Assembly (NCBI RefSeq): GCF_000731095.1
Contig: NZ_JMTZ01000002.1
Coordinates: forward strand, 1-64,000
DNA from: Lysobacter antibioticus
Lineage (GTDB): Bacteria > Pseudomonadota > Gammaproteobacteria > Xanthomonadales > Xanthomonadaceae
DNA length: 64,000 nt
Direction: 5' to 3'
Shown: positions 39,988 to 43,907 of the stretch, one piece after another
Numbering within the stretch: the stretch's first letter is position 1
Layout of the letters: the number at the start of each line of letters is the position of its first letter
Notes under the pieces: model-generated
Told to the model about the DNA's origin: nothing
The model's database searches: none
Seen by the model: only the letters and a program-made list of their open reading frames with translations
Made by a program: the position numbers and the translations under genes

Positions 39988-40782
39988 ATGAAAAAGCTGA
40001 TGGCCATCCTGGCCCTGACCGCCGCGGGCCTGAGCGGTTGCGGCGGCGGCAACGACCCGGCGTCGCAAAAGCTCACCGTCGCCGCCACCGCGGTGCCGCA
40101 TGCGGAAATCCTCGAAGTGGTGAAGCCCCTGCTGGCCAAGCAGGGCGTCGAACTCGAGGTGCGCGTGTTCAACGACTACGTGCAGCCCAACGACCAAGTG
40201 GCGCAGAAGCTGCTCGACGTCAGCTATTTCGAGACCGAGCCCTATCTCGATTCCTACAACCGCAGCCGCGGCACGAAGCTGACCACCATCGTCGGCGTGC
40301 ACATCGAGCCCTTCGGCGCCTACTCGCGCAAGTTCAAGTCGCTCGACGCGCTGCCGCAGGGCGCCGACGTGGTCATCCCCAACGACCCGAGCAACAACAG
40401 CCGCGCCCTGATCCTGCTGCACAAGTCCGGGGTGATCCAGCTGCGCGACCCGAACGATGCGCTGGCGACCCTGCGCGACATCACCGCCAACCCCAAGCAG
40501 CTCAAGTTCCGCGAACTCGATGCGGCGATGCTGCCGCGCATCCTCGACCAGGTCGACCTGGCGTTGATCAACACCAACTACGCGCTCGACGCCGGCCTCG
40601 ACCCGACCAAAGACGCGCTGGCCATAGAAGGCCGCGACTCGCCCTACGTCAACTTCCTGGTCGGCCGTCCGGACAATCGCGACGACCCGCGGGTCAAGAA
40701 GCTCGCTGCGGCGCTGACCGGCCCCGAGGTCAAGAGCTTCATCGAGAAGAAGTACCGCGGCGCGGTGTTGCCGGCGTTCTGA
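39988..40782 (+). CDS. metQ: MetQ, methionine-binding lipoprotein
   Basis: 264 aa. Signal peptide with lipobox LSGC (Cys18), then the NlpA/MetQ periplasmic binding fold. It delivers methionine to MetNI. Its gene follows metI by 39 bp and is closed by a strong hairpin. Confidence 0.93.
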   Translation: MKKLMAILALTAAGLSGCGGGNDPASQKLTVAATAVPHAEILEVVKPLLAKQGVELEVRVFNDYVQPNDQVAQKLLDVSYFETEPYLDSYNRSRGTKLTTIVGVHIEPFGAYSRKFKSLDALPQGADVVIPNDPSNNSRALILLHKSGVIQLRDPNDALATLRDITANPKQLKFRELDAAMLPRILDQVDLALINTNYALDAGLDPTKDALAIEGRDSPYVNFLVGRPDNRDDPRVKKLAAALTGPEVKSFIEKKYRGAVLPAF

Positions 40783-40794
40783 GCACGCCCGACT

Positions 40795-40823
40795 CGCCTC
40801 GCGTGTCGCCGGCACGCGAGGCG
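40795..40823 (+). terminator. metNIQ terminator
   Basis: CGCCTCGCGTG (40795-40805) pairs perfectly with CACGCGAGGCG (40813-40823) around a 7-base loop, 12 bp beyond the metQ stop. No T-run follows, which is common in this GC-rich DNA. It separates metNIQ from the downstream peptide/YcaO locus. Confidence 0.6.
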
Positions 40824-41282
40824 ACTCCAACCCACTCGGGTCCGCCAACGGCTGCGCAATGCAGCCGGAGCGACAGCGTCACGCATCGACCTGCTAAGCC
40901 ATGGCATCGGCCCCGCGATGCGTGCGGATAGAAGACTCATCGACGCAAGCGCAAGATGCGCGGCGAATTCGCGCCCGATCGCGAACGGGCAAGCAATGCC
41001 CGGAGTCGCCGATCCGGGCCGGCCGCCTTCGTCTCCGGCCCGCCCATTCAGCCATCCCGACATCCGGCCCTCGGCCGGTACAGCGCCGGCCTTGGCCCAG
41101 GCGTTTCCGAAACTGGGTCCGAAGTTTCACAACCGATGAGATCGGCGCCCGAACCGAGATTGACCGTGCTCCCAGCCGCCCCGTATAGCTGGCGCGCGGG
41201 CCGCCGGGCTCGGTCGCTAGCGTCGAGCGCCCCGGCTTGCTGCATGGAACTTCCGCAAGTCACATCACAACGAGGGATTGTT
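40824..41282. other. Leader region of the peptide/YcaO locus
   Basis: About 460 bp without a credible gene. Includes a promoter candidate at 41160-41189 and an in-frame but unsupported extension of the first peptide. A GC-rich hairpin GCCCG...CGGGC occurs near 40976-40993. Confidence 0.4.
41160..41189 (+). promoter_or_regulatory. Candidate sigma-70 promoter of the peptide/YcaO locus
   Basis: TTGACC (41160-41165) and TATAGC (41184-41189) with 18 bp between, giving a leader of about 90 bases before the first peptide gene. Both hexamers are good for this genome. Supports independent transcription from metNIQ. Confidence 0.45.
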
Positions 41283-41420
41283 ATGAAGAAGACGATCGAG
41301 ATATTCATCATCAAGTCGCGTCCGGTCTTGATCGATGCCACCAAGGCGATCACGGCCCAGGGCATCACGCCGGTGCTGACGCCGCAGGAGAAAGAACTCC
41401 TGGAGAAGCTGGCGAAGTAA
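41283..41420 (+). CDS. Putative RiPP precursor peptide A (45 aa)
   Basis: 45 aa, no cysteine. Ungapped alignment with peptide B gives 22/45 identical residues: N-terminal MKK-I---I-KS-P-L, Ala19/Lys21, Gln26, Pro30 and the C-terminal TP-EK--L-KLAK. A GAGGG ribosome site lies 6 nt upstream. A GC hairpin (GGCCGC/GCGGCC, 41424-41441) follows the stop. The paired genes lie upstream of a YcaO enzyme, so they look like precursors. Modified residues cannot be inferred; a non-RiPP role is possible. Confidence 0.7.
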   Translation: MKKTIEIFIIKSRPVLIDATKAITAQGITPVLTPQEKELLEKLAK

Positions 41421-41637
41421 CCGGGCCGCATCGCGCGGCCGACTCCGGTGCGCCGGCGGCCTGCCGCGAGCCGCGACGAGCCATCAACCGCCATAAGCGA
41501 TTCGGCGCCGACCCTGGACCTTGCCTAGGACCTTGCGTATCGCCGGCCCGCAAGCGGGCGGATTCGCGGGGACCGCCATCGTCGAACGACTCGGCGCGTC
41601 GCACCAACCTGCAACGACACCACCTCAAAGGGACCGT

Positions 41638-41775
41638 ATGAAGAAGCTCATCGGCACGACCATCGTCAAGTCCGTCCCGCATCTGCTCCTCGCCAACAAG
41701 ATCGAGCAGAACCAGGACGTCAAACCGGCGCCGACGCCGGAAGAGAAAGCCATCCTGGACAAGCTGGCGAAGTAA
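41638..41775 (+). CDS. Putative RiPP precursor peptide B (45 aa)
   Basis: 45 aa, homologous end to end to peptide A and of identical length, with a strong AAAGGGA ribosome site. The middle (residues 17-32) differs most, which suggests a variable core between conserved flanks, or a core bounded by a C-terminal recognition helix (EEKAILDKLAK). No Cys; only Thr7, Thr8, Ser12 and Thr33 are hydroxyl residues, so classical azole formation is limited and backbone chemistry is more likely (inference). A perfect 12-bp hairpin separates it from ycaO. Confidence 0.7.
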   Translation: MKKLIGTTIVKSVPHLLLANKIEQNQDVKPAPTPEEKAILDKLAK

Positions 41776-41801
41776 GCCCGGCTTCCATCCTGAGCGAACG
41801 G

Positions 41802-41827
41802 GCGGCACGAACCCAGGTTCGTGCCGC
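41802..41827 (+). terminator. Strong hairpin between precursor B and ycaO
   Basis: GCGGCACGAACC (41802-41813) pairs perfectly with GGTTCGTGCCGC (41816-41827): a 12-bp stem with a tiny loop, 26 bp after the peptide stop and 31 bp before ycaO. In RiPP operons such hairpins make precursor mRNA more abundant than enzyme mRNA, by attenuation or mRNA stabilisation. Confidence 0.7.
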
Positions 41828-41858
41828 TTCGTTCCGGCACCCCGCAAGGAGCGACTGC

Positions 41859-43109
41859 ATGATTCCGCTGGAGCGAGAGCGATCGCTGGCCGACGCCGAA
41901 CGCGTCATCCGCAGATTCGTAAGCGAGCAGGGCTGGCGCATACGCACCCAGACGCACGGCGAGCGCTTGCAGTCCACCGTCTGCACCCTGCACGACGGCG
42001 ACGACGAGGTCATCGCCAGCGGCTTCGGCAAGGGCGACGGCGAGGCGGCCCGGGTCGGCGCCATCTACGAAGCGGTCGAGCATCTGTACACCAACGCACC
42101 GCCTGCCGGAGAACGCATCGATTTCGTACGCTCGATCGATCTGTTCCGCGACCCGCGCTATGCCGGGCTGCCGTTCCTGTCGGCGTTCGCGCAGAACCCG
42201 CAGCAGCGTCTGGCGTGCCGAACCTATCGCCCCTTCTTCGGCGACGCCGCCGACGTGCCGGCACCCTTGTTCCTGACGTTTCCGAACTACCTGGACCAAC
42301 TTCCGGCCGAGGACGACTTCGACTACTCCAGCGTCATCCGCTATGGCTCCAACAGCGGCATCGCGATCGGCGCCAGCGTCGAAGAAGCCGCGGTGCACGC
42401 GATCGGCGAATTGGTCGAGCGCGATTCCTGGTCCTTGTTCCTGGTCGCGCACTACCTCGGCGAGCCGGCCAGCCTCGGCAGCGTAATCGATCCGCGGTCG
42501 CTGCCGCCGCAGGTCGCCGCGATCCACCAGGCCGCCAGCGCTCAGCTCGGGCGCGGCATCGTCCTGATCGAGGTGACCAGCGACCTCGGTTTCCCCGCCT
42601 TCATCGCCACCACCGACCGGATCCTCGACGACGAAGTGGTGTACCCGAGCGGCTTCGGTGCGTCCTTGTACGCCGCCCATGCCGCCATCCGCGCATTGAC
42701 CGAACTGGTGCAATGCGTCGGCATCCGCGAGCAGTTGCCGAGCATGCACGAGTACAGCCGCCTCGCCCTGGAGGCGTTGGCCGAATACCCGAAGCTCAGG
42801 GACTGCGCTTACTTCCAGGTATCGGCCGAGCGGCTCGAAACGGTCGAATGGTCGCATCCGACGCGCGAGGTCCAGACGCCCAAGGCGCTGCTGCGCGAGA
42901 TGGTGACCCTGCTGCAGCACAAGGGTATCCACCTCTACCACGCGATCAACCATCGCCAGGGCGATGACTTCTGCGTGGTCAGTTGCGTGTCCTTCGAGCT
43001 CGAACGCTTCCTGCTGGTCGCCTCGGGCATCGCCATGGCCCCCGGCAAACGCGGCATGGATCTGCTGGCCGGCAAGCTGCAGGTGCCGGCGCTGGAGCGC
43101 ACCGACTAG
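41859..43109 (+). CDS. Stand-alone YcaO-domain ATP-dependent enzyme
   Basis: 416 aa. YcaO core with ATP/Mg motifs: IAIGASVEEAAVHAIGELVE followed by RDSW (the ERD box, about 167-190) and SLYAAHAAIRALTELVQ (about 269-285). YcaO enzymes activate backbone amides, making azolines, thioamides or amidines. No partner TfuA, E1-like/ocin-ThiF or dehydrogenase is adjacent, and no Pro-rich C-terminus (PxPxP) typical of azole cyclodehydratases was seen. An AAGGAG ribosome site precedes the ATG. Its stop abuts the stop of the convergent lactonase. Most probably modifies peptides A and B. Confidence 0.85.
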   Translation: MIPLERERSLADAERVIRRFVSEQGWRIRTQTHGERLQSTVCTLHDGDDEVIASGFGKGDGEAARVGAIYEAVEHLYTNAPPAGERIDFVRSIDLFRDPRYAGLPFLSAFAQNPQQRLACRTYRPFFGDAADVPAPLFLTFPNYLDQLPAEDDFDYSSVIRYGSNSGIAIGASVEEAAVHAIGELVERDSWSLFLVAHYLGEPASLGSVIDPRSLPPQVAAIHQAASAQLGRGIVLIEVTSDLGFPAFIATTDRILDDEVVYPSGFGASLYAAHAAIRALTELVQCVGIREQLPSMHEYSRLALEALAEYPKLRDCAYFQVSAERLETVEWSHPTREVQTPKALLREMVTLLQHKGIHLYHAINHRQGDDFCVVSCVSFELERFLLVASGIAMAPGKRGMDLLAGKLQVPALERTD

Positions 43110-43907
43110 TCAGCGCTGGAGCAGGAAACCGAGCACCGCGCTCATGAACTCGGCCGGGCATTCGACGTTCGACAGATGCACCGCCGGCAGCACCAGCAGG
43201 CTCGCGCCGGGCACGCTCGCGGCGATGGCCTCGCCGTGGCTGGCCAGGGTCACCGTGTCGTAGCGGCCGGCGATCACCAGGGTCGGGCGCGCCACCCGCT
43301 CGAGCGTCGGGCGCATATCCAGATCGCGCACCGCCGCGTAATTGCCGGCCAGGCCGCGCGGATCGGTGGCGAGCAACATGCCGCGGAAGGCCTGGATCGC
43401 CGGCCCGTTCGCCTCGCGCAGCGCCGCCGGGAACCAGTTGCCGAGAAACATCTCGGCGGTGTCGGCCATGTCCTCGACGCCCAGCACTGCGGCGATCCGC
43501 TCCGCCCATTGCCCGGCCGGCCCCAGATAGGCCGAGGTATTGCTCAGAATCAAACGGTCGATGCGCTCGCCGGCATGCACGCCGAGCCACTGCCCGATCA
43601 TGCCGCCGAGCGACAGGCCGAGAAAATGCGCGCGTTCTATGCGCAGGGCGTCGAGCAGGTCGATCACGTCGCGGCCCAGGCGTTCGAGCGAGTACTCGCC
43701 CGCGGGCACGCCGGACGCGCCGTGGCCGCGCGTGTCATAACGCAGCACGCGGAAATGCCGCGCGAGTTCCGCCACTTGCGCATCCCACATATGCAGATCG
43801 GTGCCGATCGAGTTGGACAGCACGAGCACCGGGCGCTCGGCCGCGCCGTCGAGGCGGTAGGCGATGCGCACGCCGTCGCTGGCGTTGAGGTAAGACAGGT
43901 CGTTCAT
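43110..43907 (-). CDS. pcaD: PcaD-like 3-oxoadipate enol-lactonase / alpha-beta hydrolase
   Basis: 265 aa. Hallmark PcaD strings: SNSIGTDLHMWDAQV, nucleophile elbow GLSLGGMIGQWLG (Ser), His in AVHLSNVECP. PcaD opens 3-oxoadipate enol-lactone in the protocatechuate/catechol branch of the beta-ketoadipate pathway; no other pca gene is next door, so a related lactone is possible. Divergent LysR gene with a clear dyad between them. Its 3' end touches the ycaO stop with no spacer. Confidence 0.82.
   Translation of the reverse strand: MNDLSYLNASDGVRIAYRLDGAAERPVLVLSNSIGTDLHMWDAQVAELARHFRVLRYDTRGHGASGVPAGEYSLERLGRDVIDLLDALRIERAHFLGLSLGGMIGQWLGVHAGERIDRLILSNTSAYLGPAGQWAERIAAVLGVEDMADTAEMFLGNWFPAALREANGPAIQAFRGMLLATDPRGLAGNYAAVRDLDMRPTLERVARPTLVIAGRYDTVTLASHGEAIAASVPGASLLVLPAVHLSNVECPAEFMSAVLGFLLQR

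Follow-up and report, generated by a model that had tools for sequence, protein, structure and literature searches.

A lone YcaO enzyme and the short peptide gene beside it as a probable self-contained RiPP-type cassette in Lysobacter

YcaO enzymes chemically alter peptide backbones, and the soil bacteria of the genus Lysobacter are a source of antibiotics. The closest described systems each share some features with the locus described here. The streptamidine (ami) cluster of S. albidoflavus holds a stand-alone YcaO and is grouped with poorly annotated precursors of 31–89 aa that lack Ser/Thr/Cys-rich regions (PMC8442711). The ItfB-type YcaO of Bacteroidales acts at the very C-terminus of its precursor, and in a P. 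gulae relative of this system a radical SAM enzyme and a transporter are linked (PMC10352776). In E. coli, YcaO thioamidates the protein uL16, a reaction that has been reconstituted with unphysiological sulfide (PMC13063428). Within the genus, a YcaO gene of L. gummosus 10.1.1 is reported to be 2.5-fold induced and to have three orthologues in L. capsici, and a Lysobacter YcaO gene has been discussed as a possible antibiotic-maturation enzyme (PMC10745450); a term search of the main text of an L. capsici transcriptome paper did not find YcaO named (PMC10380237). The literature searched, in which subscription journals are thinly covered, contains no report of the peptides described below.

The locus lies in a 64,000-nt stretch of DNA (the window), which lies on contig C2 of a 5.5-Mb L. 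antibioticus genome. The sequence-only reading had described two tandem 45-codon genes, each with a ribosome site, followed by one YcaO gene, together with a promoter candidate and a hairpin, and all of these were found as follows (peptide types are explained below):

40785–43121, no strand assigned: stretch of about 2.3 kb missing in the relative G005, which has 47 other nt at the same site
41160–41189, + strand: sigma-70-like promoter candidate TTGACC-N18-TATAGC, with TTGACC at 41160 and TATAGC at 41184
41283–41420, + strand: peptide gene A1, 45 aa, type ii-like (E 1.9e-8 with a profile trained without type ii)
41421–41637, + strand: A1–A2 spacer, 217 nt, with a GC-rich foldback directly 3' of the A1 stop and without the promoter pattern of A1
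41638–41775, + strand: peptide gene A2, 45 aa, type i-like (E 0.0026 with a profile trained without type i)
41800–41829, + strand: A2–ycaO hairpin, 13 pairs counting G-U, then TTCGTT
41859–43109, + strand: ycaO, encoding a stand-alone YcaO of 416 aa

A GA-rich stretch stands 5' of each peptide ATG (ACGAGGGATTGTT-ATG and CAAAGGGACCGT-ATG). The two peptides are identical at 22 of 45 residues (49%), and neither matches a Pfam or NCBIfam family at cut-off. Judging from sequence comparisons, we propose with a probability of roughly 0.7 that the lone YcaO modifies its own peptide, the two- or three-gene unit being a self-contained RiPP-type cassette. The peptide is regarded as the most likely substrate because of its pairing with the enzyme, the selection acting on it and its co-variation with the YcaO.

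First, we examined the pairing. YcaOs of the same family, whose identity to the one in the window is 50–63% by alignment and 51–64% by the search below, occur in 11 of 20 genomes of the genus, in 23 copies at one to three per genome. The search that defined these counts used 100 relatives and matched 13 genomes, two of which, with weak partial matches to another YcaO, were excluded from later counts; in these two genus genomes without the family (G011 and G013; loci L014 and L015) the other YcaO lies about 18 kb from a SagB-type gene and is perhaps part of an ordinary azole cluster. The earlier claim hung on conserved peptides standing beside orthologous ycaO genes, and it held: upstream of every family YcaO (23/23) is a gene for a peptide of 45–59 aa, ending 70–161 nt before ycaO, so that the RiPP hallmark of a short precursor gene consistently beside a modifying enzyme is present at all 23 loci. 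When a profile of the 24 peptides was run against 60 genomes, each of the 24 strong matches (E 6e-17 or better) adjoined a ycaO and the next-best match (E 0.0069) lay inside a longer frame; peptide and enzyme are thus never apart in this 60-genome sample. Peptide and YcaO distances are strongly correlated (Mantel r 0.945 for 23 pairs, with A2 representing the window; 0 of 2000 permutations).

The family was found in two of 369 genomes of a class sample, the window genome and G157 (E 1e-34; the genome is 82% complete, and a 49-aa ORF overlaps the ycaO start), and in one of 398 genomes of a phylum sample, again the window genome; both samples were searched at a threshold of E 1e-20 with at most four first-look candidates scored per genome, a procedure that could overlook members that are distant or hidden. 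Under a narrow search pattern, viral contigs yielded no family locus and a genome contig collection yielded six, all named Lysobacter.

Second, we analyzed the peptides. They form four types, of which i, ii and iii are 45–46 aa long with an MKK start and iv is 58–59 aa long with an MG start. Profiles trained with one type left out and run on the 3065 ORFs of the 23 loci ranked the omitted type above all other non-training ORFs every time, recovering 9/9 (iv), 4/4 (iii), 4/4 (ii) and 7/7 (i) members. In these tests A1 acts like a type ii member and A2 like a type i member, and the window locus therefore joins two types before one enzyme; it is the only locus with two peptide genes, a single peptide being present in 22 of the 23. 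The C-terminal conservation first noted between A1 and A2 is sharper than had been claimed, as the last 13 residues read T-x2-E-x3-L-x3-A-K in 24/24 peptides, with D or E after L, and the final codons are AAG-TAA in every gene. A K-[S/T/N/P] pair occurs at residue 10–12 of each peptide, a motif that was picked post hoc and is not aligned by the aligner between types i–iii and iv. Cysteine, reported as missing from A1 and A2, is absent from all 24 peptides; the accompanying statement that Ser and Thr are few is true of A1 and A2 (6 and 4) and weaker for the 58–59-aa type (7–13).

The peptides are under purifying selection, as judged by pN/pS values of 0.43, 0.77, 0.41, 0.32 and 0.19 for five sets of relatives, the type ii value being based on 8 pairwise differences. 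Constraint is strongest over the last 16 residues in types i and iva (0.12 and 0.10), which is not so in iii and ivb (0.37 and 0.30), and no obvious hypervariable core is seen. A structure model of A2, of low overall confidence (mean pLDDT 71.8, pTM 0.26), contains helices at residues 19–26 and 34–44, the second with pLDDT 83–84. TAA is the stop codon in 24/24 peptide genes versus 28/157 called flanking genes and 1/23 ycaO genes, a bias that could reflect strong expression, an exact-end requirement or a regulatory role.

Third, the enzyme is a YcaO as judged by Pfam PF02624 (112.7 bits, cut-off 25.7), by the fold of its predicted model and by its nucleotide-site residues. The model has a pLDDT of 86.3, and its 40 PDB matches at E 0.001 or better are all YcaO entries. 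EAVEH, SNxG, GExxERD and RAxxELxQ are invariant in 23/23 family YcaOs, and the last three align with the corresponding motifs of MjYcaO, TruD, LynD, MusD and MkYcaO; we take them to form the ATP/Mg site. The 416-aa protein has no fused partner domain, and it scores 59.3 bits with the SagD/TOMM model TIGR03604 (cut-off 219.25), 54.7 bits with the McrA-glycine thioamidation model TIGR03266 (cut-off 365) and under cut-off with TIGR00702. A C-terminal PxPxP is found in 0/23 family YcaOs, with an internal match near residue 335 in four.

The genomic surroundings were compared over five called genes per side, the genes being called by a simple composition rule that can overlook small ones and the neighbours being named by eye for selected sequences. 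Loci of the same type mostly lie in a common setting, and about seven settings were seen overall: type i by alkaline phosphatase, type ii by a pabB-like gene, type iii by a CorA-like gene, and type iv by rtcR-, rtcB- and rtcA-like genes (five loci) or at another site (three loci), while L049 and the window have settings of their own. In the window, a methionine-type ABC transporter and an NlpA lipoprotein lie upstream and an alpha/beta hydrolase and a LysR regulator downstream. Judged by this lipoprotein, G005 is the closest relative (98% identical; next best 86%), and the missing stretch there may represent either gain of the cassette here or loss in G005; a search of the flanks for repeats at the site ends gave nothing longer than a 9-nt inverted match. 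The window genome also carries a second cassette (G000:C44:15291-16838; L019, L028), with a 59-aa type iv peptide and a YcaO that is 55% identical, adjoining rtcR-, rtcB- and rtcA-like genes (named by eye).

Among the five called genes per side at the 23 loci, no flanking gene is common to all settings, and no protease, transporter or immunity gene was found to be common to the Lysobacter loci among linked genes, as judged by eye at selected loci. TfuA (PF07812) is absent from the 11 family-bearing genomes, and an E1-like/Ocin-ThiF partner (TIGR03882) exceeds the cut-off in none of them, with weak matches in all 11. SagB exceeds the cut-off in 11/11 genomes with the family and 9/9 genus genomes without it; as it is present in all 20 regardless, it is not linked to the family, and a SagB oxidoreductase as unlinked partner was rejected.

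The sequence-only reading had argued against a standard azole or thioamide cluster, and the azole half of this is supported. An azole/TOMM cluster can be rejected on the sub-threshold SagD score and the lack of both a C-terminal PxPxP and an E1-like partner over cut-off. The thioamide half is less secure: TfuA is missing, but a thioamide could form without it, given that E. coli YcaO works in a cell that has none. With no cysteine, TfuA, C-terminal PxPxP or E1-like partner over cut-off, a backbone amidine or thioamide would be the likeliest product rather than an azole.

Finally, we considered how the cassette may be expressed. The pattern TTGA[A/C]-N-TAT[A/T] lies at −119 to −126 of the start in 10/24 peptide genes, namely in 6/6 type i and 3/3 type ii loci of relatives and before window A1; it was found in 0/4 type iii and 0/9 type iv genes and is absent from the region before window A2. 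Over both strands of the loci (694,044 nt) it matches 13 times, including these 10 sites. A conserved palindrome-like element, GCAGCCGCAGGCTGCGGCACA with small variants, was seen by eye about 80–100 nt before the type iv peptide start in L013, L021 and L023–L027. Between peptide gene and ycaO, a perfect stem (G-U allowed) of at least 10 bp occurs in 19/23 loci versus 192/2837 random stretches of the same loci, and one of at least 12 bp in 15/23 versus 65/2837; the other four loci, all type i, have an interrupted inverted repeat. The hairpin sits roughly 10–40 nt 3' of the peptide stop. Paired stem changes, such as A-T to G-C, were seen by eye in the type iii and type ivb alignments, each of four loci. 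Energy z-scores from mononucleotide shuffles reach −2 in 10/23 loci, the stem-length control being stronger. Rfam gave nothing over cut-off in 40700–43200, where one match scored 17.6 bits against a cut-off of 100.

Based on these observations, we suggest that a single promoter would drive the peptide gene or genes and that the hairpin 3' of the peptide gene is probably a read-through terminator, such that only part of transcription would reach ycaO and the peptide would be in excess over the enzyme. The C-terminal amphipathic helix of the peptide (T N-cap, E, L and the A-K end) would then dock on the lone YcaO, which, if it follows the chemistry of its family, would spend ATP on activating a backbone amide in that peptide. 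A more specific version is possible, although we hold it to be doubtful: that this is a two-gene RiPP class whose YcaO reads the C-terminal helix and alters the invariant Ala-Lys amide to an amidine or thioamide, that the product has a modified C-terminus and may act without leader removal, and that the several diverged cassettes of a genome, lying at different sites, serve different peptides. Modification at that amide would explain why no peptide reaches past the Lys; the variable stretch after Lys10–12 is the alternative candidate site. Counted against a RiPP reading are the lack of a common protease, transporter or immunity gene and of an obvious hypervariable core, the C-termini of iii and ivb not being the most constrained part, and the TAA stop in 24/24 genes, which would also fit a regulatory leader peptide.

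The strongest rival holds that the peptide is a small partner subunit, an activator or adaptor, of a YcaO acting on another protein, as E. coli YcaO acts on uL16. One peptide per enzyme in 22/23 loci, the strong co-variation, the conserved C-terminus and the lack of a common processing or export gene would all agree with this, and a protein-modifying YcaO without TfuA is known (PMC13063428). However, the window has two diverged peptides and one enzyme, the presence of as many as three cassettes in one genome, with diverged peptides, is easier to reconcile with diversified substrates than with a single shared target, and the hairpin would suggest unequal expression; we consider a partner subunit unlikely. 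Slightly less probable still is a regulatory leader peptide, in which the behaviour of the ribosome at the peptide end would control the hairpin and thereby ycaO. The invariant A-K-stop, with AAG and TAA in 24/24, and the hairpin just downstream of the stop are what such a mechanism would predict; AAG alone adds little, since it accounts for 1485 of 1733 Lys codons nearby. Against it stand the spacing of the fixed residues, which resembles that of a helix, the conservation of the N-terminal third over 45–59 aa, variation of synonymous codons, the tandem pair in the window and the lack of an Rfam family over cut-off in 40700–43200. If the cassette were what is left of a normal azole or thioamide RiPP cluster after degeneration, the missing TfuA and E1-like partners would be accounted for, but this is highly improbable given the same minimal layout in 23/23 loci at about seven settings, the invariant nucleotide site and the purifying selection on the peptides.

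If modification of its own peptide by the lone YcaO is correct, the cassette would rank among the smallest systems that modify peptides, using one enzyme and no Cys-dependent chemistry. The strict peptide end gives a sharp, testable prediction, and the peptide–enzyme pairing provides a handle on stand-alone YcaOs without a known substrate.

More distant stand-alone YcaOs were found in a plasmid collection, in which 128 records matched, none at 60% identity or more; eight of 20 listed records were examined, including one of the 111 from Rhizobium. YcaOs 24–34% identical, in Streptomyces, Nonomuraea, Pantoea and three Vibrio records, have an ORF of 38–53 aa directly upstream, which is annotated in 3/6 cases; the Nonomuraea ORF overlaps the ycaO frame and may be a chance one, and ORFs of 38–40 aa can arise by chance. 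The gene downstream encodes a SagB-type oxidoreductase in Streptomyces, a methyltransferase in Pantoea and an ABC transporter in Vibrio, the last comprising a membrane and an ATPase part in the one of three records checked. The Vibrio plasmids (L082, L083 and L084) combine an ORF of about 40 aa, a stand-alone YcaO and the abutting transporter gene, a possible exported relative. On the Pantoea eucrina plasmid (L081, 7808–10024) a 43-aa ORF, a YcaO and an overlapping SAM methyltransferase lie behind maltose genes, and similar YcaO matches occur on Pantoea sp. PSNIH1 and Acinetobacter venetianus records. Against the full Lysobacter profile, the distant upstream peptides ranked first in 3/7 loci at E 0.65 or worse (L084 excluded), and a profile of the last 16 residues ranked them first in 1/7 with no E below 0.65. 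Similarity between the distant and the Lysobacter peptides is not significant. A shared helix motif, read by eye in the distant peptides, was not supported by this test, and we therefore claim only gene order for these loci. Rhizobium (a YcaO–TfuA pair) and M. chelonae (a partial match), both with a 47-aa ORF upstream, were excluded from the family argument.

Among known systems, the M. jannaschii and M. kandleri YcaOs (6peu, 6pe3 and 6ci7) share the stand-alone fold, with a TM value of about 0.7 of the target for our predicted model, at about 19% identity; among solved structures, MJ1094 is closest by sequence (E 8.4e-17). We know of no peptide gene adjacent to these archaeal enzymes. E. coli YcaO is, like the present family, a Pseudomonadota YcaO without TfuA, but its substrate is a protein, the available sections of the report mention no peptide gene, and its pI is 4.4 (PMC13063428); the family YcaOs are likewise acidic, if mildly so, at pI 5.06–5.86. 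With streptamidine the Lysobacter loci share the stand-alone YcaO and the inconspicuous precursors, but the major ami clusters include a hydrolase, a dehydrogenase and transporters, and ALV, shared by the two streptamidine motifs, occurs in 0/24 Lysobacter peptides; 22 published streptamidine-family peptides also lack the motifs (PMC8442711). The daptide YcaO acts at a C-terminus and needs no cysteine, but it does so after earlier pathway enzymes and keeps the PxPxP (PMC12338566). The ItfB-type system is from another group of bacteria and its precursor ends in Phe; it shares with the Lysobacter cassettes a fixed last precursor residue and offers an earlier example of a YcaO that acts at the final peptide bond (PMC10352776).
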